From NCBI RefSeq assembly GCF_000732605.1, contig NZ_JPME01000003.1:124151-188150 (forward strand): DNA of 64,000 nt. The letters run 5' to 3'. Under the pieces are notes generated by a model, which was not told the DNA's origin, searched no databases, and saw only the letters and a program-made list of their open reading frames with translations. A program made the position numbers and the translations under genes. This DNA is from Lacrimispora celerecrescens (GTDB lineage: Bacteria; Bacillota; Clostridia; Lachnospirales; Lachnospiraceae). Below are positions 18,102 to 63,392 of this stretch, one piece after another (within the stretch, counting starts at the first letter, position 1; the number at the start of each line of letters is the position of its first letter).

Positions 18102-18245
18102 CACGAAAGCAATGAGTAGTGCGAAATATGGCAGAAAAAGATTTTCGTTGTGCTTGCACATAAGAAACTCTTTTCCTGACATATTTCATAGGGCGAATGC
18201 CCGTGAGCTTGGGAAACTGAAAGTTTCCCAAGCTGCACTACGGAC
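18102..18245 (+). ncRNA. Structured repeat element, copy A
   Basis: One of three copies of a 140-145 base element. It starts CACGAAAGCAATGAG and ends GCACTACGGAC. Basal stem P1 pairs GTAGTGC (18116-18122) with GCACTAC (18235-18241), where copies B and C have GCAGTGC/GCACTGC: a T-A to C-G compensatory change. P2 is a long stem, about 20 pairs with two mismatches, capped by TGTGC-TT-GCACA. P3 is GGGCGAATGCCC. P4 pairs AGCTTGGGAAACT with its complement. It lies between wzm and wzt, sense to wzt, ending 36 bases before its start. There is no T-run after P1, so it does not look like a simple terminator. Function unknown: regulatory leader, small RNA or mobile repeat are all possible. Confidence 0.7.
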
Positions 18246-18280
18246 CTGTGGGATTAATTTTATGTAACATGGAGGATTCA

Positions 18281-19627
18281 ATGTCCGTAGAATGGAACAA
18301 CAAAGCAATATCTGTTAATAATGTAACAAAAATCTACAAACTATACGAAAAGCCCGTGGACCGATTAAAAGAGGCTTTAAGCATAACCCACAAAAACTAT
18401 CACAAAGATTTCTATGCCCTAAACGGCATTTCTTTTGATGTAGAAAAAGGAAAAACCGTAGGAATCATCGGAACCAATGGATCAGGCAAGTCCACCATAC
18501 TAAAGATCATAACCGGAGTCCTCACCCCCACCTCAGGCAGTTTAGAGGTAAACGGTGTAATTTCCGCTCTATTAGAGCTGGGAGCCGGATTTAATATGGA
18601 TTATACCGGAATCGAAAACATTTACATGAATGGCACCATGATGGGCTTCTCCAAAAAAGAGATGGACAGTAAACTTCAGGACATCCTAGACTTTGCAGAC
18701 ATCGGAGACTTCGTATATCAGCCAGTAAAAACCTACTCAAGCGGTATGTTCGTCCGCCTTGCATTTGCCCTTGCAATTAACGTAGAGCCTGAAATCCTGA
18801 TCGTTGACGAGGCCTTATCTGTTGGAGACGTATTTTTCCAGGCCAAATGCTACCGCCGAATGGAAGATATCCGCCAGAATGGAACCACGATTCTAATGGT
18901 CACTCATGATATGGGCGCAATCATCAAATATTGTGATCGAGTAGTTGTATTAAACAAAGGCAATTTCATCGCCGAAGGAGAGCCCGGAAAAATGGTGGAT
19001 CTCTATAAAAAGATCCTGGCAAATCAAATGGACGACCTTGGAGAAGAGCTGGAAGAGATAAGAAGCGGCATTCTAAACGATTTTTCCGGAGACCAGGCAA
19101 CAGTTCTGGCACAGTCCAAAACCTCCCGCCAGGAAGGTCTAATGAAAGAAAAACTGACCATCAACCCAACCCGTACCGAATACGGCGACAAAAGAGCAGA
19201 GATCGTGGATTTCGGGCTTCTGGACGAAAGAGGAAATGTAACCAACCTCCTCCTTAAAGGAGAACGCTTTACCATTAAAGAACGGATCCATTTCCATACC
19301 CAAATAGAGACCCCAATCTTTACCTACACCATAAAAGATAAACGAGGAGCCGATTTAACCGGCACCAACACCATGTACGAGGCCTCTGATGTGCAGGCCG
19401 TGGGAAAAGGCGATGAATATGAGGTGGAATTCAACCAGAAAATGACCCTTCAGGGAGGGGAGTATCTTCTTTCCATGAGCTGCACCGGATTTGAAAACGG
19501 AGAGCATGTGGTTTACCACCGCCTGTATGACATCGCAAATATTACGGTCATTTCCAATAAAAATACGGTAGGTATTTATGATATGGAACCGGAAGTAAGT
19601 GTAAAGCTTCACCGGGCAGGAGAGTGA
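18281..19627 (+). CDS. wzt: Polysaccharide ABC exporter ATPase with C-terminal glycan-binding domain (Wzt-like)
   Basis: A 448-aa protein. The ATPase domain covers residues 1-240 with Walker A GTNGSGKST, signature YSSGMFVRLAFAL and Walker B ILIVDEAL. The remaining 200 residues form a Wzt_C-type beta-sandwich domain, which in Wzt proteins recognises the capped end of the polymer before export. An in-frame GTG at 18248 lies upstream, but GGAGG at 18271 points to the ATG at 18281. It pairs with the permease upstream. The presence of a C-terminal domain suggests that the glycan carries a terminal modification, which the next gene, a methyltransferase, could add. Confidence 0.9.
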   Translation: MSVEWNNKAISVNNVTKIYKLYEKPVDRLKEALSITHKNYHKDFYALNGISFDVEKGKTVGIIGTNGSGKSTILKIITGVLTPTSGSLEVNGVISALLELGAGFNMDYTGIENIYMNGTMMGFSKKEMDSKLQDILDFADIGDFVYQPVKTYSSGMFVRLAFALAINVEPEILIVDEALSVGDVFFQAKCYRRMEDIRQNGTTILMVTHDMGAIIKYCDRVVVLNKGNFIAEGEPGKMVDLYKKILANQMDDLGEELEEIRSGILNDFSGDQATVLAQSKTSRQEGLMKEKLTINPTRTEYGDKRAEIVDFGLLDERGNVTNLLLKGERFTIKERIHFHTQIETPIFTYTIKDKRGADLTGTNTMYEASDVQAVGKGDEYEVEFNQKMTLQGGEYLLSMSCTGFENGEHVVYHRLYDIANITVISNKNTVGIYDMEPEVSVKLHRAGE

Positions 19628-19640
19628 GGAGGAAACGTCC

Positions 19641-20420
19641 ATGAATGATATAAGCCCTGAACTTAAGAAGTTGTTTGTAAAATATAATGGAGATACGAAA
19701 AAGCTGCTGCAGGAGAATCCGAACCTGGATTACCTGTACGCATTATCAGATATACGTGAGAACCTTCTGGAGTGGTATGAATTTGATGAAGAGGGCTCTC
19801 TGCTTCAGGTAGGGTCCGACTACGGAGCCCTGACAAACTTGTACAGCAGGCGGGTCAGAGAGGTAACCGTCCTTGACCCTGACAGTAATAATCTGTCCTT
19901 CAATCGTTTGCGCAATGAAAAACAGGGAAACATCCAATATATAACCGGAGACTTAGACACCTTTGAAGAAGAAGGCTTCGACTATGTGGTGTTGGTGGGA
20001 TCTTTAAAGCCGCCCTATGACAAACACATAAGAAAGGCAAAATCCCTTTTAAAACCGCAAGGAAAGCTGATCCTCTCCATATGCAACCGCTTAGGCCTTA
20101 AATATCAGGCCGGTGCGATTCCTGATAAGGACCGTCTTTCAAGGACAGAGGTCCTGGAGCTTTTATGCGGAGAGGACAAAAGATCGGGTAATGCCGAATT
20201 CCATTATCCCATGCCTGACTACCGTCTGCCCATCACCCTGTATTCCGATGAATATCTGCCAGGCAAGGGAGATTTAACTCACGCCATTCTGGCCTATGAT
20301 TATCCCAAATATCTGAAGTTTGATTTAGGAAAGATGTTCGATGAGGTATGTGAGGGAAAACAGTTTGAGACATTTGCCAATTCATTTTTAACCATTTGGA
20401 GCCGTCATGAAAAAAATTAA
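19641..20420 (+). CDS. SAM-dependent class I methyltransferase
   Basis: A 259-aa soluble protein with a Rossmann methyltransferase core. Motif I appears as LLQVGSDYGALTN near residue 54, an acidic end of strand 2 as VTVLDPDS, motif II as ITGDLDTF and the post-I strand as FDYVVLVGSL. It may methylate a sugar of the growing glycan, for example a chain-terminating cap recognised by the Wzt C-terminal domain, but the acceptor is inference. It starts 13 bases after wzt with a GGAGGAAA site and overlaps the next gene by 14 bases, so the three are translationally linked. Confidence 0.8.
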   Translation: MNDISPELKKLFVKYNGDTKKLLQENPNLDYLYALSDIRENLLEWYEFDEEGSLLQVGSDYGALTNLYSRRVREVTVLDPDSNNLSFNRLRNEKQGNIQYITGDLDTFEEEGFDYVVLVGSLKPPYDKHIRKAKSLLKPQGKLILSICNRLGLKYQAGAIPDKDRLSRTEVLELLCGEDKRSGNAEFHYPMPDYRLPITLYSDEYLPGKGDLTHAILAYDYPKYLKFDLGKMFDEVCEGKQFETFANSFLTIWSRHEKN

Positions 20421-23400
20421 CTTTGTAAAATACAATAAGACCCGTAGGGAAGCGTTCCAGATCCGCACCAGTCTGGTGGAAGAAGATGGCTGTCCATTTG
20501 TTGAGAAGACAGCCTTAAAACCTGAGGGTGTTGCACATATAAAATCCCTTGGTGAAAAATATAAAAGCCTTACTGCGCAAAGCCAAAAGCTTAAGGTCGC
20601 CGGGGTTTCCATAAGTCCGGATGAAAGGACCGCCCGTTTCGATTTCCTTAAGGGTCATACTCTTTCCGAGTTGCTCGGAAAGGAGATCTGTAACGGAAAG
20701 GTTTCCGTATCCCATATGGAAGACGGGCTTTCCCTGATTCTGGGTGTGAAAGAAAACTGCATCATTCCCTTTACCATTACGGCCGAATTTGAAGAGGTGT
20801 TTGGAACACTCACGAAAGCAGATGAAAAAGACTGGGCGTTTAAAACCTCCAACATTGACTGCCTTTTTGAGAACATCATGATGACCGAGGACGGTCCTTA
20901 TCTCCTGGACTATGAATGGGTATTTACCTTCCCGGTTCCAGTCACCTTTATTAAGTTCCGGGTTCTTTATTATTTTTACGAACAGTATAAAAGCCTTTTG
21001 TCCTATGATTCTATGGAAGCATTTATGGAAGAGTTCGGTGTGGAGACAGATCGTATTGCCATGTATGAGGAGATGGAACGCTGTTTCCAGGAATATGTCC
21101 ATGGGGAGAACCAGCAGATCTATCTGGTCAATTACATGCAGGAAACCCATGCCTTGCCTGAGGATATGTATGGCTTATCCCAGGTGATTGATGAGACAAA
21201 GGAACGCCTTTCCCAGATGGAAATGGAGATCCGGGAAAAGGATGTGCTCATCACCAGGCAGCAGGAGGAAAAGCGCCTGACTGACAATCATGTGACCAAC
21301 CAGGAGATCATTATTCAGACCCTCCGGAAGGATTGCGATGATATGAGGGAAATGATCACCTGGCTTCAGGGGCACGAAGCATTGACTTTCCGCGCCAGAA
21401 GGAAGCTTGGAAGAATCTTTAACGAAAAATTCCCCAAAGGGACCAGAAAACGGAAACTGCTGTTTTATGCCAAGGATACGGTATTTCATCCGCTGAAATC
21501 CTTCCGCCTCTATACAACAGAGGAAGGTCGGAACCTGATTGAAGGCGATATGAAGATTGGAGATGCCTACCGGACCCATGGAAAGCTCCGTTTCATAAAA
21601 GAGGGCCATCCCATGGTTTCCATCGTCATCCCGGTCTACAATCAGATCCATTATACCTATGCCTGCCTTGCATCCATTCTGGAGCATACAAAGGACGTGG
21701 TATATGAGGTCATTATAGCAGACGATGTTTCTACTGATGCAACGGCAGAACTTTCTAAGTTTACGGAAAACGTAGTCATATGCCGCAATGAGACCAACCA
21801 AGGATTTTTGCGGAACTGCAACCAGGCGGCCAAAGCAGCCAGGGGAAAATATGTTATGTTCCTAAATAATGACACCCAGGTAACAGAAGGTTGGCTAAGC
21901 AGTCTGGTAAACTTAATCGAATCAGATTCAACCATCGGCATGGTAGGATCCAAGCTGGTTTATCCTGACGGACGCCTGCAGGAAGCAGGGGGGATCATCT
22001 TCCGTGATGGTTCCGGCTGGAATTACGGACGCCTTGACGATCCGGACAAGCCAGAATACAACTATGTGAAAGATGTGGATTATATATCAGGAGCCGCCAT
22101 CCTTCTCTCCAACGATTTATGGAAGCGGATCGGCGGATTTGACGACCGGTTTGCTCCTGCTTATTGTGAGGATTCTGACCTTGCCTTTGAGGTGCGCAAG
22201 GCCGGCCTTCGGGTGGTTTACCAGCCGTTATCCAAGGTTATACATTTTGAGGGCATTTCCAACGGAACTGATGTCAACGGTTCAGGTCTTAAGCGGTACC
22301 AGGTTGAAAACGGCCATAAGTTAAGGGAAAAATGGGCGGCTGAATTTAAGCTGCAAAGTGAAAACAACGGAAATCCCAATGTATTCCGGGCAAGAGAGAG
22401 AAGCCAGGGCAAAGACATTATTTTGGTGGTGGACCATTATGTTCCCACCTATGACCGGGATGCCGGTTCCAAGACCACCTTCCAGTATTTAAAGATGTTT
22501 TTGGAAAAGGGCTATGTGGTGAAGTTCCTGGGAGATAATTTCCTCCATGAAGAACCTTATTCCACCGTTTTGCAGCAGATGGGAATTGAGATCCTATACG
22601 GCAGGGAATTCCAGGTGAAAATCTGGGACTGGTTAAAGGAGCATGGAGATGATATCAAGGTTGCTTATTTAAACCGTCCCCATATTGCTACCAAATATGT
22701 GGATTTTATCAAGGATAAAACAAACATTAAGATGATCTATTATGGTCATGACCTGCACTTCTTAAGGGAAGGCAGAGAGTATGAACTGACCGGAGATCCT
22801 AAGAAAAGAGAGTCTTCTGAATACTGGAGGTCTGTGGAGCTTCGCCTGATGAGAAAGGCGGCGGTATCCTATTATCCTTCCTATGTGGAACGGGAGGCCA
22901 TTCATGAAATAGAGCCTTCTATTCATGTGAAAGCTATAGTAGCCTATGTTTATGAAAAATTCTTAAACCACATTCCTTATAACTTTGAAAAGAGGGAAGG
23001 GCTCTTGTTTGTAGGAGGATTTGCCCATCCCCCTAACGCAGATGCTGTTTTGTGGTTTGCACAGGAAATATTCCCACTAATCCGGGAACAGCTTCCCATA
23101 GATTTCTATATCGTGGGTTCCAAGGTGACAGATGAAATCAAGGCTTTGGAGCAGCCGGGCAGCGGAATCATTGTAAAGGGATTTGTATCAGAGGAGGAAC
23201 TTGCAAGGCTTTATTCAAGCTGCCGGGTAGTCGTGGTGCCTTTGCGTTACGGTGCAGGTGTGAAGGGAAAAGTCATTGAAGCCTTATATAACGGTGCTCC
23301 GGTGATCACTACTTCCATTGGTGCAGAGGGAATTCCTGAGGCAGAAAAGGTCATGGTGGTGAGAGATGAGCCGGCAGCCTTTGCAGGGGAAGTTATTTCC

Positions 23401-23511
23401 CTGTACCAGGATCCTGAACGATGCAAACAGATGTGTATGGAAACTCAGAATTATATCCGCAGTTATCACAGTATTGATGCTGCCTGGAACGTAATAGGAG
23501 AAGATTTTTAA
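20407..23511 (+). CDS. Large multi-domain glycosyltransferase: kinase-like N-terminus, GT2 domain, GT4-like domain
   Basis: A 1034-aa cytoplasmic protein. Residues 1-235 resemble a small-molecule kinase fold: NIDCLFENIMM and LLDYEWVF fit the catalytic-loop Asn and metal-binding Asp of aminoglycoside/choline-type kinases, but the usual HxD is absent. Residues 255-325 include a heptad-rich coiled coil. A GT2 domain begins near residue 402 (VSIVIPVYNQIHY, FLNNDTQV, GFDDRFAPAYCEDSDL), a form typical of O-antigen rhamnosyltransferases. A GT4-like domain begins near 671 (VDHYVPTYDRDAG) with FVGGFAHPPNADAV and VPLRYGAGVKGK. It probably assembles two linkages of the exported glycan. Start ATG overlaps the methyltransferase gene. 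Confidence 0.85.
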   Translation: MKKINFVKYNKTRREAFQIRTSLVEEDGCPFVEKTALKPEGVAHIKSLGEKYKSLTAQSQKLKVAGVSISPDERTARFDFLKGHTLSELLGKEICNGKVSVSHMEDGLSLILGVKENCIIPFTITAEFEEVFGTLTKADEKDWAFKTSNIDCLFENIMMTEDGPYLLDYEWVFTFPVPVTFIKFRVLYYFYEQYKSLLSYDSMEAFMEEFGVETDRIAMYEEMERCFQEYVHGENQQIYLVNYMQETHALPEDMYGLSQVIDETKERLSQMEMEIREKDVLITRQQEEKRLTDNHVTNQEIIIQTLRKDCDDMREMITWLQGHEALTFRARRKLGRIFNEKFPKGTRKRKLLFYAKDTVFHPLKSFRLYTTEEGRNLIEGDMKIGDAYRTHGKLRFIKEGHPMVSIVIPVYNQIHYTYACLASILEHTKDVVYEVIIADDVSTDATAELSKFTENVVICRNETNQGFLRNCNQAAKAARGKYVMFLNNDTQVTEGWLSSLVNLIESDSTIGMVGSKLVYPDGRLQEAGGIIFRDGSGWNYGRLDDPDKPEYNYVKDVDYISGAAILLSNDLWKRIGGFDDRFAPAYCEDSDLAFEVRKAGLRVVYQPLSKVIHFEGISNGTDVNGSGLKRYQVENGHKLREKWAAEFKLQSENNGNPNVFRARERSQGKDIILVVDHYVPTYDRDAGSKTTFQYLKMFLEKGYVVKFLGDNFLHEEPYSTVLQQMGIEILYGREFQVKIWDWLKEHGDDIKVAYLNRPHIATKYVDFIKDKTNIKMIYYGHDLHFLREGREYELTGDPKKRESSEYWRSVELRLMRKAAVSYYPSYVEREAIHEIEPSIHVKAIVAYVYEKFLNHIPYNFEKREGLLFVGGFAHPPNADAVLWFAQEIFPLIREQLPIDFYIVGSKVTDEIKALEQPGSGIIVKGFVSEEELARLYSSCRVVVVPLRYGAGVKGKVIEALYNGAPVITTSIGAEGIPEAEKVMVVRDEPAAFAGEVISLYQDPERCKQMCMETQNYIRSYHSIDAAWNVIGEDF

Positions 23512-23635
23512 ACGGCAAAGAAGGTTAACCCGTCCCGGTATGACCGGGCGCGGTGCCATGCCGTTGCCTGCAAGGGCATACTTAAATGAAGTGAAAGGAA
23601 CAATGAGGAAAGTAAGGGGAAAGGAAGAAGATCGC

Positions 23636-24727: not shown

Positions 24728-24754
24728 TCTTTCTGGATTCTTCTAAGGGATATA

Positions 24755-24763
24755 TGATATAAT
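24755..24763 (+). promoter_or_regulatory. Candidate internal promoter of the heptose genes
   Basis: Extended -10 TGATATAAT, 33 bases before the hddC-like start. No convincing -35. Confidence 0.4.
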
Positions 24764-24796
24764 AACGATTAGAAAAAATATCAGGAGGGTACAGTT

Positions 24797-36593: not shown

Positions 36594-37697
36594 TCAGCCG
36601 GGGCCTGATGTAAGCCCTGGTGATAGCTGATATACGCCATTGCTTGAAGAATTGGAGCTGCTGCCGCCAGGAGTGTCATTAGAAGAACTTCCCGGTGCTC
36701 CGCTTAAGTTATTGTTGTCAGAAGAGGATCCTCCCGGCCCGCCAGAACCCGATGGAGTCGAGGTAGATCCGCCTGGCGCATTGGAGGAACCGGTTGATGA
36801 GCCTCCGGGGGTGTTCCCACCAGTTGAACCGGAAGGAGAACCGGAAGCATTTCCCTGGTAAGCTCCGTTTGAACCAAAGGTGTAGCTTGTTCCGTCAATG
36901 GTAAGGGTGGTGTTTGCTGCCATCTTACCGGTAGATGGATCAAGATAATAATAAACACCGGAAAGCTGTACCCAGCCGGTCATCATATGACCTGAATCAT
37001 TAAAATAATAATAGGAACCGTCAATCTGCAGCCAGCCGTGGGCCATCTTTCCGCTGCTGGTATCCATGTAATACTTGTTGGTTCCATCACTGAGCCAGCC
37101 GGTCATCATACGTCCCAGCACAGACTTGGTATCAACATTCAGATAGTAGTAGGCATTATCAATCTGTTTCCATCCGGTTACCATCTTGCCGTCAGAACCA
37201 AAATAAAACCAATCGCTTCCAATCTGCCCCCATCCAATGGTGCATTTACCATTTTCTTTGAAATAATACCAGCCGCCGTCCATTTCCCGCCAGCCGGCGG
37301 ACATGGAGCCGTCACCCTTCATGTAGTAGTAGTCATTGCCTATTTTTAACCAGCCCTTAACAAGGACGCCTGTATCATCCATGAGGTAATAGTATTTACC
37401 GCCGTCCTGTATCCACTTGGTAGCCATTGCGCCGTTGGAATGAAAATAGTACCAGTTACCGTTGATCTGTTTCCAACCAGTTGCCATAAAGCCTGTGGAG
37501 AGATCTAGAAAATAAAAGGTTCCATCGGATGTCTTTACCCAGCCCTTGTGGGTGGAACCATCCTGGTCTATGTACTTCCACTGAGTGCCTTCTGCTACCC
37601 AGCCGGTAGCCCCCCAGGCCGTGCCTGCCGGTATCAGAGTAGAGGTTCCCACAAGCCCTGCTATGAGCAATGCTGTCATTTTCTTTCTGTATTGCAT
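36594..37697 (-). CDS. Cell-wall-binding repeat protein with Gly/Ser/Pro-rich tail
   Basis: A 367-aa exported protein. A signal peptide ends near residue 29 (GTAWGA). Residues 30-280 are about a dozen choline-binding-type repeats of the form GWxxxxGxWYYxxxxGxM. Residues 281-367 are a low-complexity tail of Gly, Ser, Pro, Asn and Thr. No enzymatic domain is present, so it may be a surface scaffold or a wall-anchored structural protein. Its leader contains structured element B, which ends 42 bases before the start, followed by an AGGAGGAAGG ribosome site. Its own terminator lies just downstream, making it a single-gene unit. Confidence 0.9.
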   Translation of the reverse strand: MQYRKKMTALLIAGLVGTSTLIPAGTAWGATGWVAEGTQWKYIDQDGSTHKGWVKTSDGTFYFLDLSTGFMATGWKQINGNWYYFHSNGAMATKWIQDGGKYYYLMDDTGVLVKGWLKIGNDYYYMKGDGSMSAGWREMDGGWYYFKENGKCTIGWGQIGSDWFYFGSDGKMVTGWKQIDNAYYYLNVDTKSVLGRMMTGWLSDGTNKYYMDTSSGKMAHGWLQIDGSYYYFNDSGHMMTGWVQLSGVYYYLDPSTGKMAANTTLTIDGTSYTFGSNGAYQGNASGSPSGSTGGNTPGGSSTGSSNAPGGSTSTPSGSGGPGGSSSDNNNLSGAPGSSSNDTPGGSSSNSSSNGVYQLSPGLTSGPG

Positions 37698-37739
37698 ACC
37701 GTCCTTCCTCCTGTCTAGCCGTTTTATTTATGTGCTATA

Positions 37740-37884
37740 GTCCGCAGTGCAGCGAGTAAAGCCTTCGGCTTTACTCGCTCACGGGCTTTCGCCCTATGAA
37801 ATAAGACGGGTAAAGATTTTCTTATGTGCGGGGCACAACGAAAATCTTTACCCGTCTTATTTCGCACTGCTCATCGCTTTCGTG
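37740..37884 (-). ncRNA. Structured repeat element, copy B
   Basis: Read on the minus strand, it starts CACGAAAGCGATGAG and ends GCACTGCGGAC. P1 pairs GCAGTGC (37864-37870) with GCACTGC (37744-37750). P2 here is a perfect 24-base stem beginning GAAATAAGACGGG, capped by TGTGC-CCC-GCACA with the conserved TAAG on the 3' side. P3 is GGGCGAAAGCCC, and P4 pairs GCGAGTAAAGCC with its complement around GAA. Of the three copies this has the best-paired arms. It lies in the leader of the cell-wall-binding protein gene at 36594-37697, in the sense direction. Function unknown. Confidence 0.72.
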
Positions 37885-37887
37885 TAC

Positions 37888-37896
37888 ATTATACCA
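37888..37896 (-). promoter_or_regulatory. Extended -10 of element B
   Basis: Minus-strand TGG-TATAAT, four bases before CACGAAAGC, placing transcription start at or within a few bases of the element's first base. It is likely also the promoter of the downstream cell-wall-binding protein gene. Confidence 0.6.
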
Positions 37897-37958
37897 CAGT
37901 ACCGACAGGAATACCTAAACATTTTATTACGATTTGCGGACATTTTCCAAAAATATCA

Positions 37959-39782
37959 TTATTTGGCGATTATGAAGCATTTTTTGTAATAGTTTTTTGC
38001 ATAACGATACATGATTATGGTATATTCGCCAAATTCATCTCCTAAGGCTGCCTTGTATACTGCCCATAGACTCCACAGAAAACCGCCAAGAGCGATATAA
38101 GCATAAACGGTGAAACGTTCTTCTTCAGATGGCTCTCGTTCCAGGTAGATTCTTATTAGATCATCTGCTTCTTCTTCGTTGTAGTAGGAGTAAATCGCGC
38201 TCATACTGATATCGATAAGCGGATCACACATTCCGGAATATTCCCAATCGATTAAGCGCACGTTGCCATCGGGCATCATTAAAAAGTTATCGACCACGGT
38301 ATCAATATGGGAAAGGACTTTCTTATGATTCAACTTGTCCAATTGGTCTAAGAGCTCAGTCATCTGCTTACGGACAGCGGAGTAATCGTCAAACGGGATA
38401 CCCCCATGGGCCTTACATAGCTTTTCGTAGAAGTCGATCCGTTCGCGAATGTCAAAGGAATGGTCTACGGTAAGTCCGGATTTGTGGAGCCTTCGGATAA
38501 CCGCCATGCAGCGTTCCATTTCTTCCCGGCTGGAAGGGTTTGCATTATGAGTACCTTCATAAAATTCCGCAATCTTATATCCTGTTTCTCCATTAAAGTA
38601 AATGACTTTTTCCGTAATATCCAGACCGCTTAATGCATCATAAACTGCTTTTTCCTGCTGGCGGTTAATAAGAAGCTCTGTTCCGGCCCCCGGGATGCGG
38701 CAGATATAATGGCGGTCCTTAATTTTAAATAGGAAGGATTTATTGGTCATGCCTGATTTTAGGCATCGTATTTCTGTGATCTCTGACTCAGGTACTTTGA
38801 ATACGGTCGATACTAATTCCATTGCTTCATTATCGGAATGGTGCTGATATTTCAAATCAAAACGGCGAAGCTCTTCCAGGTTCTCAAATTCATATACTTC
38901 GTCAGCCGGTCTGCGGTTGATAAACAGGTCAATGTCCTGTTTTGCCTCAGGGATATGAGGAAGCCTCTTAGCTGCTTCTCCGGACAGCATTTCCATATAG
39001 ACATTTTCCCAGTAAAACTGTTCGGTTCCAGGAAGATTGTAATAATTTTCTAATACGGTGAGAAATTGCTCTGAGAATAATTTTGAGAAAAAAACCGGCC
39101 CATACATCACCCATTTGTCCTGGCCGCCTACAGATACATTTAAAATGCGTCCCTTCTTATTATAATCAAGGCACCATTCGGAGGTTTCCCCTTCCATGTA
39201 TGACGCGGAGTACCATGCACCGCCTTCATAGGCATGGTACATATTGTGGCGCATCCAGTTATCGGATGAAAGAACGTACATATTCCTACCACGGAGGAGC
39301 TCACGGGCATGATAAATGGTGGTCAGGGTGTTTTTCTGGGAATACTCAGGATTATATAAAAGCTTAACCTGATATTTGTCTATAAGGTATTCAAATTTTT
39401 CCTTTAAATAACCCACCACAATGGTGATGTCCCTGATTCCGGCTTCATGGAGCTGGCGGATCTGACGTTCGATCATTCGTTCTCCGAATACTTCCAGCAG
39501 GCCTTTGGGTGTTTCGAACGTTAAGGGGACGAAACGAGAACCGAAGCCGGCAGCGATGATGACGGCACCGTCTACCTTATTATCATTTAGAAGGGCTTGG
39601 CCAGCCGGAAGTAATTCGTATAGATCGTTGGCGTTTCCAATCTCAATGTATTTTTTTTCTATGCATTCCTTTATTAAGTTATTAACGGTTCCCAGGGAAA
39701 CGCTAAGCTCTTTTGATAAATCTCTTTGTGTGACTGCCGGGTTTTCCAGAATGGAACGGCAGATGATGACGTTACGATCCAT
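37959..39782 (-). CDS. Fusion of winged-helix domain, LicC-like cytidylyltransferase and LicA-like choline kinase
   Basis: A 607-aa cytoplasmic protein with three parts. Residues 1-62 look like a winged helix-turn-helix (PAVTQRDLSKELSVSLGTVN). Residues 70-300 are a nucleotidyltransferase with AAGFGSRFVPLTFETPKGL and VLSSDNWMRHNMY, like LicC, which makes CDP-choline. Residues 320-607 are a choline/ethanolamine kinase fold with HIDTVVDNFLM and LIDWEYSG, like LicA. Together these would turn choline into CDP-choline for phosphocholine decoration of wall polymers, the ligand for choline-binding repeats. Three genes for such repeat proteins surround it and a fourth lies 22 kb away. The substrate (choline or another amino alcohol) is inferred. 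A GGAGG site precedes the ATG. Confidence 0.85.
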   Translation of the reverse strand: MDRNVIICRSILENPAVTQRDLSKELSVSLGTVNNLIKECIEKKYIEIGNANDLYELLPAGQALLNDNKVDGAVIIAAGFGSRFVPLTFETPKGLLEVFGERMIERQIRQLHEAGIRDITIVVGYLKEKFEYLIDKYQVKLLYNPEYSQKNTLTTIYHARELLRGRNMYVLSSDNWMRHNMYHAYEGGAWYSASYMEGETSEWCLDYNKKGRILNVSVGGQDKWVMYGPVFFSKLFSEQFLTVLENYYNLPGTEQFYWENVYMEMLSGEAAKRLPHIPEAKQDIDLFINRRPADEVYEFENLEELRRFDLKYQHHSDNEAMELVSTVFKVPESEITEIRCLKSGMTNKSFLFKIKDRHYICRIPGAGTELLINRQQEKAVYDALSGLDITEKVIYFNGETGYKIAEFYEGTHNANPSSREEMERCMAVIRRLHKSGLTVDHSFDIRERIDFYEKLCKAHGGIPFDDYSAVRKQMTELLDQLDKLNHKKVLSHIDTVVDNFLMMPDGNVRLIDWEYSGMCDPLIDISMSAIYSYYNEEEADDLIRIYLEREPSEEERFTVYAYIALGGFLWSLWAVYKAALGDEFGEYTIIMYRYAKNYYKKCFIIAK

Positions 39783-56284: not shown

Positions 56285-56296
56285 AGAGGTAGATTC

Positions 56297-57373: not shown

Positions 57374-57437
57374 AAGTTGATTTGAATTAAAAAAATTTAA
57401 CACGCTCCTGGAGTATCCCAAAGATTGTTTAAACCTT

Positions 57438-57468
57438 CAAACTGATATAAGATACAATTATCAGTTTG
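57438..57468. repeat. Inverted repeat at the left side of the IS256 remnant
   Basis: CAAACTGATA and its complement around an 11-base loop. It could be a weak terminator of the polysaccharide operon or part of the inserted sequence. Confidence 0.4.
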
Positions 57469-57479
57469 GAGGTATTTTT

Positions 57480-58240
57480 ATGGTGAAACGAAAAGATACA
57501 CTGCAAAAGGCTGCCATGGATGATATATAATTAATTTCGCAAATTCAATTTCAAAAAAATAGACATGGTCTATAGCCGTTTAAAATGCCTTGGGATGCTG
57601 GAATCCATTCTAGAAGTATTTCCGGATACAAAGTATCAAAGAGTACTGTACATTTCTACCGGAATATATTCTCTGCTACTCCACGTTATAAGATGAAAGA
57701 AGTCCCTGTGCTGCTAAAGGCTACCCATGCTCAAGAGTGTAAAGCTTCTACAAGAGAAAATGCAAAACAAGTAGCTGAAAGACTAAAATGAAACTGACAT
57801 CGGTAGCCAAAAAGGTCGAAGATGGAATCGAAGAAACACTTACATACATGGATTTCCATAGCCAACACTGGACTAAAATTCGTACCAACAACAACATTAA
57901 GAGACTAATCAAGAAATTAAACGCAGAACCTGTGCAATTAGTGCATTCCCTGATTGGCAAAGTGCTTTGATGCTTGTATGTGCCAGATTACGTCATGTAG
58001 CTGAAACCCAATGGGGTACAAAACGCTACATGAATATGGAGCATCTAAAAGAAATGGATATCCATTACGAGTCTGATATCATAGCCGGCGGACTACCGGC
58101 TACCAGACGGTTGAAATACTATTTGCGAAAAATTCTTGACACCATCTGTGGTATACCTTTCATATTACCGGCTAAACAAACGGTATACATAAAATTATTT
58201 TATAAAATGCACACCTTTATTTTTTGTAAAATCTAGAGAA
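57480..58240 (+). mobile_element. Degraded IS256-family transposase gene
   Basis: Pieces of one transposase appear in shifting frames. A start MVKRKDTLQKA at 57480 stops after 16 codons. From about 57590 follow EVFPDTKYQR, then STVHFYRNIFSATPRYKMKE in another frame, EDGIEETLTYMDF with HWTKIRTNN, then RRTCAISAFPDWQSALM and LRHVAETQWGTKRYMNMEHL. The order and wording match the C-terminal half of IS256-type transposases. The middle of the gene, including most of the DDE domain, is missing and there are at least three frameshifts, so it is inactive. It marks the right end of the AT-rich polysaccharide locus. Confidence 0.85.
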
Positions 58241-58370
58241 TAGTTAAGATTAGTAATAGTGCTGGATGGCTTTTCCGATGACTGTGTTGAAACACGGCTG
58301 CCATTATGGGAAAGCTTTCTTTAATTTGAATAGCAATAATATACTAAATTTATTAAAAATAAAAAACCCC

Positions 58371-58413
58371 TTGCAATTTATCTCTACATAGAGTAATATA
58401 TAACTACATAGAG
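58371..58413 (+). promoter_or_regulatory. Promoter and likely MarR operator
   Basis: TTGCAA at 58371-58376, a 17-base spacer and TAATAT at 58394-58399. CTACATAGAG occurs twice exactly 20 bases apart (58384-58393, 58404-58413), straddling the -10; the first lies within the palindrome CTCTACATAGAG. Two helical turns between sites is typical of autoregulated MarR promoters. Confidence 0.75.
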
Positions 58414-58430
58414 ATAATATAGGAGATGAA

Positions 58431-58865
58431 ATGGCAAAAACAGAATTAAAAATCCTAATTGGCCTACACCGGGCCGTAAACTATATTGACCGCCAATCAA
58501 CCAAGATATTTTCAGAGTACAATCTTACCATGGGCCAATTTGCCGTATTAGAGGCATTATATCACAAAGGAGACATGACCATCGGTCAGGTTCAGGAAAA
58601 AATATTAAGTTCCAGCGGAACCATTCCTCTTATTATAAATAACCTTGAAAAAAGAGGGTATCTTATAAGGAAAGCAGACAGCAAAGATAAGAGGCGATGC
58701 ATTCTCCATATCACAGCTCAGGGACAAGAATTGATTGGTCAGGTATATCCAAGAAATGAAGCCAGAATTATTGAGTTAATGACTCATTGGACTGATGAAG
58801 AAAAAGAACAATTGGCAATTTTATTAAAAAAGTTTGGAGATGAGATGAATGGAGAGAAAGATTAA
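58431..58865 (+). CDS. MarR-family transcriptional regulator
   Basis: A 144-aa dimeric winged-helix regulator. Features are GQFAVLEALYHKGDMTIGQVQEKIL (helix-turn-helix start), SSSGTIPLIINNLEKRGYLIRK (recognition helix) and DSKDKRRCILHITAQGQEL (wing). The promoter carries repeated CTACATAGAG sites consistent with autorepression. The gene overlaps the pirin gene by 17 bases, and pirin and nitroreductase genes follow, a combination often linked to response to quinones or electrophiles. The inducer is unknown. Confidence 0.92.
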   Translation: MAKTELKILIGLHRAVNYIDRQSTKIFSEYNLTMGQFAVLEALYHKGDMTIGQVQEKILSSSGTIPLIINNLEKRGYLIRKADSKDKRRCILHITAQGQELIGQVYPRNEARIIELMTHWTDEEKEQLAILLKKFGDEMNGEKD

Positions 58866-59694
58866 AAGACAGGTAAGAGGTTTTAGAACCCAGGATGGTG
58901 CAGGCGTAAACCTGGTAAGGGTGTTAGGACATGAAACAATGGAAGAATACGATCCCATACTGATGCTGGATTCCTTTGACAGTACAAATCCCGATGATTA
59001 CACGGCCGGATTCCCCATGCACCCGCATAGGGGCATTGAAACCATCAGTTATGTATACCGCGGGCAGATGGTTCATAAGGATAGTTTGGGAAATGAAGAT
59101 TCCATTTCAGACGGAGAAGTCCAGTGGATGACAGCAGGCTCCGGAATCCTGCATGAAGAGAAGCTGCCTGCTTCAGCACGAATGCTTGGTGTACAGCTGT
59201 GGCTGAATTTACCGTCAAAGGATAAAATGACCGCTCCTTCTTACCACAGCATAAAAAATGATGAGATTGAAGAGATCAATCTTGAAAGTGGAAAATTGAG
59301 ACTGCTTGCCGGGCAATATAAAGACAATAAAGGATATGAGGGCAAATATCTTCCTCTGGATTACTACGATATCCATCTAGATCCCAACGCTTCCATTTCC
59401 TTAGATACGGAGCCAAACCGCTCGGTTATGATCTTTACCCTGTCAGGAGAGGTTTCTGTAGGAGGAGAACTGGTGAGAGAGAAGACAGCGGCGAAGCTTA
59501 CCTCTGGAGATACGGTCGAGATAAAAAGTGCTGAAAAGAATGCTCAGGTATTATTTATAAGTTCAACGTCTTTGGGAGAGCCTATAGCCTGGGGCGGCCC
59601 CATTGTCATGAATACGAAAGCCGAATTGCAAAAAGCTTTTACAGATTTAAATCAAGGAACATTCTTACAAAAGGGAATGTCATATGACGACTAA
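58849..59694 (+). CDS. Pirin family protein
   Basis: A 281-aa bicupin. The N-terminal cupin has the pirin metal motif: GFPMHPHRGIETISYVYRG with HPHRG, and GILHEEKLP (a His and Glu), giving the usual three His and one Glu. PTGSEWMTAGSG-like context appears as QWMTAGSGILH. Bacterial pirins include quercetin 2,3-dioxygenases and redox-linked regulators; the substrate is not clear. It overlaps the MarR gene and precedes a nitroreductase-family gene, so it is probably under MarR control. Confidence 0.9.
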   Translation: MERKIKRQVRGFRTQDGAGVNLVRVLGHETMEEYDPILMLDSFDSTNPDDYTAGFPMHPHRGIETISYVYRGQMVHKDSLGNEDSISDGEVQWMTAGSGILHEEKLPASARMLGVQLWLNLPSKDKMTAPSYHSIKNDEIEEINLESGKLRLLAGQYKDNKGYEGKYLPLDYYDIHLDPNASISLDTEPNRSVMIFTLSGEVSVGGELVREKTAAKLTSGDTVEIKSAEKNAQVLFISSTSLGEPIAWGGPIVMNTKAELQKAFTDLNQGTFLQKGMSYDD

Positions 59695-59733
59695 TAAAAC
59701 TAAAATTATTTAATTAGAATAGGAGGAATTAAA

Positions 59734-60306
59734 ATGAGCATTATTAAATCATTAGAAAAGAGAAGAAGCTATTACAACATTAATAAAGAACTTCCCGTTA
59801 ATACTAGCGAAGTCATTGAACAGATTGAAAAATTGACAGAACTGGTGCCCGATGCTTTTAATATGAAAAGCTCCCGCATTGTGGTGGCCTTAGAAGAAAA
59901 GCAGGAGCTATTATGGGATTCTATCTATGACGCTTTCGGGGGCCAGGTTCCAAGAGAAAAAATAGACAGCTTTAAAGCAGGGGCAGGAACCATTCTTTAT
60001 TTCTACGATCAGGAGGTCGTAAAAGGGCTTCAGGGACAGTTTCCGCTATATGCAGATAATTTCCCCGCCTGGGCGATGCAGTCCAGTGCAATGCTTCAAA
60101 TCAGCATCTGGAGCGGGCTGCGGGAATTAGGGATCGGTGCTTCCTTACAGCATTACAATCCTGTTATAGATCAGAAAGTCCGGGAACTGTTTAATTTGCC
60201 GGAAAGCTATCTGCTGATTGGCCAAATGCCTTTTGGAGGTATTGTAAAAGAGCCTGAAGCAAAAGAAAAGGAAGATATTTCAAAACGAGTTCGGATTGAA
60301 CGATAA
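59734..60306 (+). CDS. Nitroreductase-family oxidoreductase
   Basis: A 190-aa flavoprotein of the NfsB/FRP-like superfamily, closest in layout to the HBN1/Frm2 type: KRRSYYNINKELPV near the start supplies the phosphate-binding Arg, DAFNMKSSRIVVALEE the FMN-facing Ser, and LRELGIGASLQHYNP with GGIVKEP the C-terminal FMN contacts. It reduces quinones, nitro compounds or similar electrophiles using NAD(P)H. A GGAGG site precedes the ATG. It is the last gene of the MarR operon; a terminator lies 25 bases after it. Confidence 0.87.
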   Translation: MSIIKSLEKRRSYYNINKELPVNTSEVIEQIEKLTELVPDAFNMKSSRIVVALEEKQELLWDSIYDAFGGQVPREKIDSFKAGAGTILYFYDQEVVKGLQGQFPLYADNFPAWAMQSSAMLQISIWSGLRELGIGASLQHYNPVIDQKVRELFNLPESYLLIGQMPFGGIVKEPEAKEKEDISKRVRIER

Positions 60307-60331
60307 ATTAATTAAATTTTATCCAAATTTG

Positions 60332-60364
60332 AAAAAGCAGGCGTAATATACGCTTGCTTTTTTA
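60332..60364 (+). terminator. Rho-independent terminator of the MarR operon
   Basis: AAAAAGCAGGCGT and ACGCTTGCTTTTT arms with one mismatch and a 5-base loop, ending in a T-run. Confidence 0.85.
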
Positions 60365-60835
60365 CGTCAACTCTCTCGTTACTCAACATCTTTTCCGATA
60401 CCGAACTTCTTTCCATCGTCTGCTTGCCGCCCAATCGGTCATAATAAATATCCGTATTTTTAATGCAGTCGCCCTATCTATTACTTTGGAGTATACGTAA
60501 TATAACTACCTCAGACCACCCAATAGGTCCCTAATAAACCACAGGTACCCTGGATATCAGAAAAATGATGTGAATTGTTGCATATAGTCGTTAAAAGGTT
60601 ATCAGAAGTAATCAATTTTTCACGAATTTTATCGACAATCCTACACGGCACATATTGTACCTTGTTTTATTGGTATAAATAGATGTTGTATTTTTGCTTC
60701 TTTTTGGATAAAAATATGGTTAATTTATTAAAGAATGACAAAAAAATGTCGAATATTGCGATTTGTTTCGCTTTTCAAACAATAGAAAACGGCTTATAGT
60801 GATTACAAGAAAAGCAAAAAAGGAGGGTTTTCTAT
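60365..60835. other. Intergenic stretch without a supported gene
   Basis: About 470 bases. The left half has mixed composition and stop codons in all frames; the right half is AT-rich. TATAGT at 60796-60801 could be a -10 for the small ORF that follows. Nothing else recognised. Confidence 0.4.
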
Positions 60836-60985
60836 ATGACAGATGCTGAGAGGCTAAGGATTATAGAGATTGAGAATGAGAGGCTTATGGAAGAGAATGA
60901 GAAACTCCATAAAGTGATTAAAAGGTTAAATCAGACGCTTAACAGATTAATAGGTCGTTACATAAGAGCTGACGAGGTTGCCTGA
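60836..60985 (+). CDS. Small coiled-coil protein, 49 aa, unknown function
   Basis: An ORF with ATG at 60836 preceded by AAGGAGGG at good spacing. The product is nearly all helix with heptads of Leu/Ile and charged residues (EIENERLMEENEKLHKVI), then a basic end (NRLIGRYIRA). It has no signal peptide or cysteines. The ENEKLxKxI segment resembles the C-terminal coiled coil of the zinc-ribbon protein encoded convergently at 61032-61439 (ETENEKLNKTIEW), so the two could be related or pair with each other. No family recognised. The strong ribosome site makes translation likely. Confidence 0.65.
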   Translation: MTDAERLRIIEIENERLMEENEKLHKVIKRLNQTLNRLIGRYIRADEVA

Positions 60986-60988
60986 CTA

Positions 60989-61029
60989 GGGATAGCCAGG
61001 GAGTGCGGGGGCACTCCCGGGAGTATCCC
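60989..61029. terminator. Nested stem-loop between convergent genes
   Basis: GGGAGTGC-GGGG-GCACTCCC inside an outer GGGATA/TATCCC pairing. It lies at the ends of the small ORF and the zinc-ribbon gene. There is no T-run on either strand, so function as an intrinsic terminator is uncertain. Confidence 0.5.
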
Positions 61030-61031
61030 TG

Positions 61032-61439
61032 TCAGGGATCGATCCCGGTTTTGGAATTTTCCTCGTTGCCGGGATCATATCCCTTTGTCTTGCGCATCAG
61101 TTCCCATATTGTTTGATGCATCCATTCAATAGTTTTATTCAGCTTTTCATTTTCTGTTTCTAATTCGGTAATGCGCTCCCCCATAAGGGCAATAATCTCC
61201 CGGTTGTTATTGACTCTGTGTGGCGCCAACAGGCGCTGGACGTAGGGAGATGATGCGGCAACGATATGGGTGGAAAGTAATTCATCTCTTGCTTCACAGG
61301 AGAGATCCATAAAATCCTGATAACTGATGGATAAGGTTACCATATCCTCCCTGCACTTGGGACAAACTGCGTTCCGCTGAAGCTGATAATATCCATAGTA
61401 ACCGCATTTGGGACAATAGTACACGGACAGTTCTCTCAT
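61032..61439 (-). CDS. Zinc-ribbon and coiled-coil protein of unknown function
   Basis: A 135-aa protein. The N-terminus has a zinc ribbon, YYCPKCGYYGYY...AVCPKCRED (two CxxC pairs at about residues 8-30). A central region includes DLSCEARDELLSTHI, and the last 45 residues form a coiled coil (GERITELETENEKLNKTIEW). The frame extends upstream to 61463, but AAGGAGGAG lies inside that extension and points to the ATG at 61439. Not a family I can name; zinc ribbons of this kind often mediate nucleic-acid or protein binding. It stands alone between terminators. Confidence 0.75.
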   Translation of the reverse strand: MRELSVYYCPKCGYYGYYQLQRNAVCPKCREDMVTLSISYQDFMDLSCEARDELLSTHIVAASSPYVQRLLAPHRVNNNREIIALMGERITELETENEKLNKTIEWMHQTIWELMRKTKGYDPGNEENSKTGIDP

Positions 61440-61597
61440 CGGTCTCCTCCTTTTTTTTACCATAAAAACAATCTACCTCTATAATATATAACGTAAAATA
61501 ATTTTAATTATAACGCAAAAAAGTACTAAAAATATAAAAAGTTGTAAGTTTATAGAAGGTATACAAAAACCCCCGGATAATTGGTGCAGAATGCATA

Positions 61598-61634
61598 AAA
61601 GAGATCCGCACGCGGCGAACGTGCGGATCTCTTT
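61598..61634 (-). terminator. Rho-independent terminator of the 61673-63013 gene
   Basis: A 15-base perfect stem (AAAGAGATCCGCACG and its complement) with a 7-base loop, followed on the minus strand by TTTTATG. Confidence 0.88.
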
Positions 61635-61672
61635 ATGTTTGAACGGATGAATCATTTGTAATATTTTTAAAT

Positions 61673-63013
61673 TTACTGGATAATGCCGTTTACATCGACA
61701 ATCCATACTTTGTCATTGGAATCCTTATAATCCTTATATCCTGCTCCAAGATCTGGCTTTGTAGCTGACTTGGAAGAGGAAGATGCTTTCTGGAGGGAAC
61801 CGCTGGCATTTACCAGATACTGCTTGCCTTCAAAGGAAATAGGAGCAACCTTTAAGTCGGCATCAGCTTCTTTTCTTAAGCCATATTCATACAGGACGTT
61901 GTCACGGATACCGTGAACTCCCTGTCCTTTGTTAGTACCTTCTGTCTGAAAGAACCATACCTGATTCTCATCCAGATCTTCGTTGTAAATTGTCTGCTTT
62001 CCGGTAGCCATGGCACCGTCTGTTCCAAAGTAGAAATTAGCGATTCCGCCGTCTTCTAAGTTGATAACGTTCAGTCCGGTCTGCATTTCTCCCTTTGTAT
62101 TGAATGCATATTTTTTGGAATCAATGGTAACTAATTCAAGACCATTTGCTGCACAGGAAGGAGCACCGTTCTTGAAATAGAAGTTGTAGATTTCTCCCTC
62201 TTCGCTAAGTCCTTCAATACCTTCGATTTCCTTCCAACCGTTAACCCGTGCACCACTCTCTGGATCATAATACTGGTATCCAGCTGCTGTAGTTGCATCA
62301 GCGGTTGCTTCGGATTCGGTTGCAGTAACAGGAAGCTTGTACCAGCCTTTCTGCATGATTCCGTTTACAAAGGTATAATAGTTTCCATCGATCTTTTTGT
62401 CGACCTGGTTTTCTACCATACGGCCGCTCTTATCAAAATAGTACCAGGAATGAGTTTCATCAAGTTCGTCGGAGTCATTTTCAAGCTCAATCCAGCCTGT
62501 CTTCATAACGCCGTCATTCTCTTGTCCTAAATAATAAATACTTCCTTCAATCTCGATCTTTCCGGTCTGCATTTCACCCTGGTCGTTGAAGTAGTACACA
62601 TTATCGTTGATTTTCTGCCACTTGGAAATAACTTCTTTACCATTTTTTCCATAGTAGTGCCATAAAAACTCAGGGGCATCAGCAGAATCCCAGAAGTTTT
62701 CATTGGCCATGGAAACCCATTTGTCAGAAACTCTTTTCCCATTTTCGTCTACGTAATATTCATCGATTTGTGTATTAGTGGCGACATTGCCGTCCTCATT
62801 TAAGTAGAACCAGTCTTCGCCTCGCTTTTTCCAGGAATCGGTTACGTAGCTGTCATTATCTTCATAAAATTTCCAGCTTCCGTTTTCTTCAACCCAGCCA
62901 ACTACCTTAGCGTAGGCGGTGGCTGCTGTGCTGATTAAGCCCAGCTCTGGAGCTGCTACGGTTAAAACACCGGCAGCGGATAATACAGCCATCAATTTTA
63001 AGTGCTTTTTCAT
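61673..63013 (-). CDS. Acidic cell-wall-binding repeat protein, paralogue of the 40460 product
   Basis: A 446-aa exported protein with a signal peptide to about residue 34 (ATAYA). A longer frame starts at 63073, but AAAGGAGAG precedes the ATG at 63013. Repeats WKFYEDNDS, WFYLNEDGNV, YYVDENGKR and WYYFDKSGRM are of the choline-binding type and rich in acidic residues. Repeat order at the N-terminus, and the C-terminal part with KGQGVHG and LVNASGSLQKA, align with the 40460-42124 protein (KGQGKFG, LVNTAGTVQKS), so the two share a C-terminal domain outside the simple repeats. No catalytic domain seen. Likely a wall-bound surface protein. Confidence 0.87.
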   Translation of the reverse strand: MKKHLKLMAVLSAAGVLTVAAPELGLISTAATAYAKVVGWVEENGSWKFYEDNDSYVTDSWKKRGEDWFYLNEDGNVATNTQIDEYYVDENGKRVSDKWVSMANENFWDSADAPEFLWHYYGKNGKEVISKWQKINDNVYYFNDQGEMQTGKIEIEGSIYYLGQENDGVMKTGWIELENDSDELDETHSWYYFDKSGRMVENQVDKKIDGNYYTFVNGIMQKGWYKLPVTATESEATADATTAAGYQYYDPESGARVNGWKEIEGIEGLSEEGEIYNFYFKNGAPSCAANGLELVTIDSKKYAFNTKGEMQTGLNVINLEDGGIANFYFGTDGAMATGKQTIYNEDLDENQVWFFQTEGTNKGQGVHGIRDNVLYEYGLRKEADADLKVAPISFEGKQYLVNASGSLQKASSSSKSATKPDLGAGYKDYKDSNDKVWIVDVNGIIQ

Positions 63014-63240
63014 AAATATGTTCTCTCCTTTTTTGCAATAAGTTTTATCGTGGCCGAAAATCCATAGTTGCATTACCCTGCGATTATACCGTATTATGAA
63101 GGCCTATAGATAGTGTGGTTTGATGGCAGATATGGAAGGAGATAACATAAAAAGAAAAAAGAAGAGAAATCCCAGGGGTTAGGAGCAACCAAAAAGAAAA
63201 GAAAGTAAGAAAACTTTAAATAGGAAAAAGGGGGGGTGTG

Positions 63241-63249
63241 TGGTATAAT
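63241..63249 (+). promoter_or_regulatory. Extended -10 of element C
   Basis: TGG-TATAAT, preceded by GTGTG, with CTA before CACGAAAGC. The same TGTGGTATAAT-N-TACACGAAAGC arrangement is found on the minus strand at copy B. No clear -35. Confidence 0.6.
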
Positions 63250-63252
63250 CTA

Positions 63253-63392
63253 CACGAAAGCAATGAGCAGTGCGAATTAGAACACGAAAATTTCGTCGTG
63301 CTTGCACGTAAGAAAAAATTTCCGTGTTCTAATTCATAGGGCGAAGCCCGTGAGCCTGTGAAGCCGCAGGCTTCACAGGCTGCACTGCGGAC
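63253..63392 (+). ncRNA. Structured repeat element, copy C
   Basis: It starts CACGAAAGCAATGAG and ends GCACTGCGGAC. P1 pairs GCAGTGC (63267-63273) with GCACTGC (63382-63388). P2 begins GAATTAGAACACG and pairs with CCGTGTTCTAATTC; it is capped by CGTGC-TT-GCACG, where copies A and B have TGTGC/GCACA, a compensatory T-A to C-G change. P3 is GGGCGAAGCCC. P4 pairs AGCCTGTGAAGCC with its complement. It lies about 90 bases upstream of the thiamine-diphosphate enzyme gene in the sense direction. Function unknown. Confidence 0.72.

Follow-up and report, generated by a model that had tools for sequence, protein, structure and literature searches.

Three copies of a structured element of about 145 nucleotides lie in a 64,000-nucleotide stretch of the Lacrimispora celerecrescens genome (contig NZ_JPME01000003.1, positions 124,151 to 188,150; hereafter the window). 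The copies occupy positions 18102-18245 of the window on the forward strand (copy A, 144 nt), 37740-37884 on the reverse strand (copy B, 145 nt) and 63253-63392 on the forward strand (copy C, 140 nt). Comparisons at the level of sequence show that they belong to a structured family that is present or absent at orthologous sites, lies mostly in sense orientation, marks the left edge of an untranslated segment in most cases and is largely kept. The explanation that we favour, tentatively and at somewhat less than even confidence, is that the element may be a sense-strand, self-dispersing structured RNA that caps the untranslated start of an mRNA segment and protects or insulates it.

Fold, covariation and the pseudoknot

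A typical element runs in the order CACG, AAAGCAATGA, the 5′ strand of P1, P2, ATA, P3, GTGA, P4, the 3′ strand of P1 and GGAC. P1 encloses the hairpins P2, P3 and P4; P2 is a long stem that is interrupted by a conserved internal loop (GT/TAA) and closed by a GTGC-YN-GCAC cap, and P3 typically takes the form GGGC-GAAN-GCCC. Near-invariant unpaired bases (AAAGCAATGAG, the GT/TAA internal loop, ATA, GTGA and CGGAC) stand next to stems of variable sequence. A preliminary description of the window, made from its letters, had reported the three copies with three conserved blocks, a P1 that changes from GTAGTGC/GCACTAC to GCAGTGC/GCACTGC, a changed P2 cap and a perfect 24-bp P2 stem in copy B. All of these features are in the sequence, and the copies, which lie at the coordinates and on the strands reported there, align with one another over their whole length.

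RNAalifold applied to 10 elements of the L. celerecrescens genome gave 50 pairs, 23 of which show compensatory double changes. Covariation was also measured over 64 diverse sequences, in an alignment fitted to a covariance model (R1) built from 10 full copies of the same genome. An alignment made in this way leans towards the structure of R1; control scores obtained after sliding the pairing partners nevertheless stay low. Both sides of a pair have changed in 906 of the 2966 pair cells, against a mean of 257 after shuffling (none of 500 shuffles reached the observed count) and at most 208 in the slid controls. In the same set, 46 of the 50 pairs change on both sides (37.1 when shuffled), 92.8% of the cells are paired (62.7% when shuffled), and the covariation score is 0.657, compared to 0.152 for shuffled alignments and no more than 0.127 with partners slid. 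The excess of double-changed cells bears out the initial proposal that pairing, rather than sequence, has been under selection.

Two further collections of copies were used. The named alignment comprised 82 rows, of which 6 were omitted as partial or as second hits in a locus, leaving 76 copies drawn widely (the named set); the three-genome set comprised 60 more recent copies, 20 from each genome, with those of G002 and G008 being the 20 listed places among 37 and 31 matches, respectively. An outer inverted-repeat stem, pairing a 5′ CGWAAG with a 3′ TYAYG tail, showed no excess over shuffles in either set (6.80 versus 6.85 in the named set; 6.89 versus 7.10 in the three-genome set) and was dropped for lack of covariation support.

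A crossing helix that was absent from the preliminary description joins the CACG at the 5′-end of the element to a CGTG formed by the last base of P3 and the three bases that follow. Its variants include CACG/CGTG, CGCG/CGCG, CGTG/CACG, GCGA/TCGC, TTGA/TCAA and TGGT/GCCA. In a test that allowed the helix to slide, the score over 57 distinct pairs was 8.07 versus 6.63 for shuffles (standard deviation 0.21; 0/2000). Counted over three pairs in a fixed register, 72.9% of cells were paired, against 64.5% after shuffling (0/500), with 22 double-changed cells versus 9.9 (0/500) and a covariation score of 0.288 versus 0.210 shuffled (1/500) and at most 0.119 slid. With sites divided by type, the sliding score lay above all 600 shuffles at promoter-type and at other sites alike, and the fixed-register score lay above shuffles at promoter-type sites (69/5000).

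Some copies depart from the common form. In the trpS-leader copies L199 (G008) and L200 (G011), which come from two species, P4 is extended to a far longer hairpin while the family pattern is kept elsewhere. The 3′ flanks of L023, L272, L260, L279, L027 and L310 carry short tandem repeats (several units at most) of the sequence around GCTGCACTGCGGAC at the 3′-end of the element itself. Side-by-side partial or tandem duplicates occur at L074 (G057), L067, L065, L068 and L117, one of the genomes concerned being from another family of the order.

Distribution, placement and site occupancy

The description as a three-copy family holds for the window, where the start motif has no perfect match other than those at the three copies; the genome as a whole holds about 20. 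A pattern search allowing at most one mismatch found 12 places in the genome, 10 of them full elements, and R1 recovered 20 full-length copies in the 5.04 Mb (E-values from 3e-41 to 2e-12) together with a shorter match at 2e-8. The remainder of the 37 rows of R1 output consists of a few weak places and of antisense or partial matches to these copies. A covariance-model search of related genomes, which had been proposed with the preliminary description, yielded many further copies with strong covariation: R1 matched 36 of 61 genomes (this genome and its relatives). Matches to R1 number 25-37 in 7 of the 25 genomes of the genus and 1-4 in the other 18, the high counts being inflated by antisense hits. 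A broader model (R2; E-value threshold 1e-5) matched 240 of 396 sampled Lachnospiraceae genomes, representing 187 of 280 genera, and 34 of 393 genomes in a sample of the class, 18 of the 34 lying outside the family; copy numbers from R2 are lower bounds, at most 8 candidates being scored per genome. Genera among the matches listed in a one-pattern named scan include Hungatella, Enterocloster, Roseburia, Eisenbergiella, Hespellia and others.

The possibility that the element is a known RNA family that had gone unrecognised finds no support in Rfam 15, which gives no match to it. At the gathering threshold there were no matches in the window and none on 12 divergent loci, and in a set of 8 loci Rfam 15 identified only 6S RNA, tRNA and the glycine riboswitch, all outside the element. 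A permissive Rfam search around copy C returned 12 hits, mostly microRNA families, all far under the cutoff. The family is apparently undescribed: literature searches found no description of it, though it may be among the 3161 candidate structured RNAs reported from human microbiomes in PMC8040213, a source available in part.

The 60 copies of the three-genome set collapse to 35 independent sites, made up of 16 ortholog groups and 19 singletons. A −10-like promoter box precedes the element at 23 of these sites, usually by 3 nt, and at 19 sites the element begins between −30 and +5 relative to a stop codon; one or other rule holds at 34 of the 35, compared to 22 of 280 control positions taken downstream and 49 of 455 taken upstream. 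In the named set, which was not collapsed to independent sites, the figures are 67 of 76 copies versus 40 of 568 and 127 of 962 control positions. Six named copies (L084, L091, L097, L115, L135 and L151) follow a terminator-like hairpin and T-run, L091 by seven bases, and two of these, L084 and L151, are among the nine named copies that fail the automatic placement rules. Genes downstream of the terminator-following copies include, by eye, tyrS-like and trpE-like ones. A T is found at position −2 in 32 of the 35 sites.

Where the flanking genes are in tandem, the element is co-directional with them at 21 of 22 sites in the three genomes and at 41 tandem sites among the named copies. At the exceptional site in the three genomes, a co-directional open reading frame (ORF) of 59 codons with a ribosome-binding site lies 41 nt downstream; the crude ORF caller passed over it. 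Four of the 35 sites lie between convergent genes. The flanking genes include trpS, ftsE, ftsW and a dnaD-like gene by eye, and genes for an M16 peptidase, polysaccharide export and a thiamine pyrophosphate (TPP) enzyme by Pfam. No common pathway was seen among them, in an assessment made mostly by eye and for 7 proteins by Pfam.

These settings bear on two regulatory explanations. The element could be a cis-regulator, that is, a riboswitch or protein-responsive leader answering to a single ligand or protein across a scattered regulon. The nearly invariant unpaired bases beside variable stems would suit such a role, as would the many copies immediately past a −10 box. The flanking genes, however, share no visible theme, and the convergent-gene sites and the copy in the 3′ untranslated region (UTR) of rplQ, ahead of a terminator, also count against it; this explanation is unlikely. 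A second possibility is a processive antitermination RNA like put or EAR, which would modify RNA polymerase during transcription. It would account for the location of copies right at the beginning of leaders and between genes of an operon, and for the compact, pseudoknotted fold, but the six terminator-associated copies come after, not before, the hairpin and T-run, and the rplQ copy precedes a ribosomal-operon terminator that has been retained; we consider antitermination very unlikely. Riboswitches, put and EAR resemble the element as compact RNAs at leader starts or between operon genes, as far as the available parts of PMC9378689 and PMC12691694 describe them; the element differs in having no Rfam match or visible common regulon and in the recent dispersal of its copies.

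Four loci, with gene names assigned by eye except for the M16 peptidase (Pfam), were compared among genomes for presence of the element. The trpS site is filled in 7 of 24 genomes, empty in 16 and unreadable in 1, and at the empty sites a TTGACA-TACAAT promoter leads straight to the leader. The site at the M16 peptidase gene is filled in 7 of 25 genomes, immediately past the upstream stop codon, and empty in 18. At rplQ, 8 of 24 genomes have the element, between the stop codon and the operon terminator, and 16 lack it; one of the rplQ copies is without P4 and the 3′ strand of P1. The site at the dnaD-like gene is filled in 7 of 24 genomes, in one case with an internal deletion and in another by a degenerate copy, and is empty in 17 with the promoter intact. 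The same seven genomes are filled at trpS, at the M16 peptidase gene and at the dnaD-like gene, and rplQ is filled in those seven plus one. At all four loci the empty orthologous sites retain the −10 box or stop codon that precedes the element elsewhere. By eye, no clear target-site duplication is visible at the trpS or dnaD-like sites, and TA or TTA is possible at the M16 site. The copies thus look like lineage-specific gains, probably inserted at pre-existing sites with a change of a few target bases at most; that they are gains is inferred from presence and absence.

Once in place, the copies appear to be constrained. Over 34 ortholog pairs, which are not independent, the element has diverged by 0.11 overall (358 of 3392 paired and 180 of 1490 unpaired sites differ, the unpaired class including hypervariable hairpin tips). 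Divergence is 0.33 in the downstream spacer (426 differences at 1292 aligned sites, with a further 122 gap positions) and 0.13 in the upstream region, which is presumed to be mostly coding (1092 of 8305 sites, plus 262 gaps). Within ortholog groups, stem differences are dominated by replacements of one Watson-Crick pair by another (76 pair-cells in P2 and 47 in P4), and the changes are scattered, mostly as isolated pairs beside unchanged neighbours when judged by eye. One could suppose that these are ordinary repeats whose compensatory changes arise from hairpin-templated DNA repair rather than from selection, and the long perfect hairpins and the greater number of double changes than of single G-U or A-C changes in orthologous stems are in keeping with that idea. 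It is highly implausible, given that the changes are mostly isolated pairs, that the crossing pseudoknot also covaries, and that the element as a whole shows a third of the divergence of the adjacent spacer.

RNA or DNA, and the means of dispersal

The explanation favoured here would run as follows. A module of about 145 nt disperses through Lachnospiraceae genomes, mostly in the sense orientation, its first base lying a few bases at most from a −10 box, a stop codon or, for some copies, an intrinsic terminator. The RNA would fold as it emerges and cap the first stretch of mRNA that is free of ribosomes. Such a cap may keep Rho from loading, R-loops from forming or ribonucleases from entering, and the flanking cistrons would be insulated or tuned whatever their coding content.

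Whether the selected structure acts as RNA or as DNA was approached by comparing G-U pairs, which an RNA would tolerate better on the transcribed strand, with A-C mismatches. The indications of transcription consist of the −10-like boxes and the operon positions. The preliminary description had proposed either a functional RNA or DNA hairpin ends; selection on pairing stands. When the stem arms are aligned neutrally, G-U outnumbers A-C by 52 to 21 in the named set, and the model alignment of that set gives 75 to 33; the motif filter of the neutral alignment removed 14 of 60 three-genome copies and 3 of 75 named ones, with P2 counted in 41 and 69 copies and P4 in 35 and 27, respectively. The G-U excess in the named set favours a transcribed RNA, and the three-genome set hardly does so.

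Several observations weigh against a protective RNA. Among the recent copies of the three-genome set, G-U and A-C are barely apart (23 to 16 on the neutral alignment, and 34 to 35 on the model alignment), and within ortholog groups the P2 changes comprise 14 G-U versus about 20 A-C, with 12 versus 0 in P4. Two of the five pseudoknot measures fall within the range of shuffles (double-change pairs, 360/500; further pair types, 206/500), and the fixed-register test fails at non-promoter sites (1.515 versus 1.502; 2505/5000), where the helix seems to slide in register. Transcription usually starts about 7 nt past a −10 box. At promoter-type sites the start would accordingly fall near the G4 of CACG, leaving the 5′ strand of the pseudoknot partly outside the RNA. 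This incomplete strand and the G-U to A-C ratio are the main doubts concerning RNA as opposed to DNA, and a role as a DNA hairpin keeps some plausibility because G-U is barely above A-C in recent copies and the pseudoknot would be partial in promoter transcripts. Five named copies look antisense to both neighbours when ORFs of at least 50 codons are counted, two of them with ORFs of at least 100; the antisense-looking copies are L112, L103, L125, L135 and L099, and some of the neighbouring ORFs are short and may not be genes. The element is no less diverged than the spacer in 5 of the 34 ortholog pairs, and three copies are truncated, deleted or degenerate, indicating that individual copies are not all indispensable. 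The strict placement itself could reflect insertion targeting rather than function.

The chief rival is stated in terms of DNA: a selfish element resembling a miniature inverted-repeat transposable element (MITE), whose single-stranded DNA folds into the hairpins and pseudoknot and is moved by an enzyme encoded elsewhere, whose insertion targets AT-rich sequence or an exposed non-template strand at promoters, stop codons and terminators, and whose effects on genes are incidental. Presence and absence at orthologous sites, with a target change of a few bp at most by eye, is what such an element would produce, and the split in copy number within the genus, the T at position −2, the TATAAT-like left flank found even at some stop-codon sites such as rplQ, and the rough equality of G-U and A-C in recent copies all point the same way. 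Against it stand the constraint on copies in place, with orthologous stems changing mainly as compensated pairs, the excess of G-U in the named set, and the failure to find matches in viral contigs (searched with one exact pattern) or in plasmids and phages (searched with copy C). Mobilisation by a Y1 transposase was considered and found no support: PF01797 is present in 5 of the 7 high-copy genomes and has no match in the other two, G008 and G014 (past loss is possible), so copy number is not tracked by Y1, and no element-like ends were found near 8 sampled Y1 genes, only one of which came from a high-copy genome. Terminal complementarity is supplied by P1, and neither an autonomous partner at these 8 loci nor a mobilising enzyme was found in the Y1 search, other transposase families not having been searched. 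On balance a purely DNA-level selfish element seems doubtful.

Known interspersed repeats offer partial parallels, described here from the available portions of the sources cited. The BOX, RUP and SPRITE repeats of Streptococcus pneumoniae are likewise short, folded, multi-copy and possibly in transcribed regions; they are less than 200 bp by general definition, judged to be probably parasitic, thought to affect co-transcribed genes, and over-represented between convergent genes (PMC3049150). As they are reported there, the present element differs in its mostly co-directional tandem sites, fixed left edge, covarying pseudoknot and constraint in place. The bcr repeats of the Bacillus cereus group are interspersed repeats of the same general kind: bcr1-bcr3 are MITE-like and often found in UTRs or in the spacers of operons, the RNA structure of bcr10 and bcr18 is conserved, and a correlation with decay rate was reported for bcr3 only (PMC3446304). 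Left-edge placement, orientation, the pseudoknot and constraint in place set the element apart from them by description only, as far as that source goes. The extragenic palindromic repeats of the REP, BIME and REPIN type, which are associated with Y1 (RAYT) transposases (PMC3116915, PMC3686654), are also comparable; REPs are 20-40 bp (PMC3733652), whereas the element, at about 145 nt, contains a junction of three hairpins and a pseudoknot, and its copy number is not tracked by Y1. The bcr repeats are not known outside the B. cereus group.

Start sites, stop codons and the base of a terminator hairpin have in common that nascent RNA first comes free there, of start site, ribosome or hairpin, and could pair with the template strand. 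This suggested a variant in which a mobile RNA, in the non-template orientation, enters or is kept exactly at the upstream border of R-loops formed during transcription, its fast-folding pseudoknot suppressing R-loops and Rho there. We regard this version as distinctly unlikely.

Copies in the window and wider significance

Copy A (18102-18245, +), identified by end-to-end alignment with B and C and by a covariance-model match, follows the stop codon of a gene (17285-18097) for an ABC-2 polysaccharide-export-type permease and precedes a gene for a Wzt-type ATPase (both by Pfam). The TAA stop codon (18095-18097, +) is 4 nt ahead of the element, within a TATAAC (18093-18098). The 5′ strand of the putative pseudoknot, CACG (18102-18105), pairs with CGTG at 18202-18205, as indicated by sequence and family covariation, and the 5′ strand of P1, GTAGTGC (18116-18122), pairs with GCACTAC at 18235-18241. 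Between them, all on the forward strand, lie P2 with its GT/TAA internal loop and TGTGC-TT-GCACA cap (18123-18187), P3 in the form GGGC-GAAT-GCCC (18191-18202) and P4 (18206-18234).

Copies B and C each begin 3 nt past a −10-like TATAAT with an extended TGG. For copy B (37740-37884, −) this box is at 37888-37893 (−), and the element forms part of the leader of the gene at 37697-36594 (−), which encodes a choline-binding-repeat protein. Its P2 (37798-37863), of which the lower stem is the 24-bp perfect one, its P3 (GGGC-GAAA-GCCC, 37783-37794) and its P4 (37751-37779) are on the same strand. For copy C (63253-63392, +) the box is at 63244-63249 (+), and the element lies in the leader of a TPP enzyme gene that starts near 63482, with P2 at 63274-63335, P3 (GGGC-GAA-GCCC) at 63339-63349 and P4 at 63353-63381, all on the forward strand.

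By Pfam, copy B is flanked by genes for a fused nucleotidyltransferase/choline-kinase protein and a choline-binding-repeat protein, and copy C by those for a choline-binding-repeat protein and the TPP enzyme. The fused protein adjoins its choline-binding-repeat neighbour (36594-39782, −), and another choline-binding-repeat protein is encoded at 61673-63073 (−). The fused choline-kinase and choline-binding-repeat proteins suggest that this Lacrimispora-like species decorates its cell surface with phosphocholine. Elsewhere in the window, a permease-like ORF (15266-15643, +) is overlapped by a long ORF in a different frame (15493-16440), and the pair (15266-16440) could represent a frameshifted gene or a sequencing error. 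A link to LoaP/NusG was set aside: the ORF at 16715-17269 resembles RmlC by eye, and LoaP was pursued through the literature only, with no search made for a loaP gene.

The element, which has no Rfam match, is present in about 20 copies in this genome and in more than half of the sampled genomes of its family, some copies lying in the leaders of housekeeping genes, and transcriptome and engineering studies of these gut bacteria will encounter it. The placement rule ties dispersal to transcript boundaries and to RNA structure, a link that is unreported for the BOX and bcr repeats in the available parts of PMC3049150 and PMC3446304. If the R-loop-edge proposal were true, the family would represent a mobile genetic element of a new class, one that acts as an RNA insulator and disperses by marking the boundaries of transcripts. 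The many natural pairs of filled and empty sites offer a means to test the effect of leader or intercistronic structure on gene expression.

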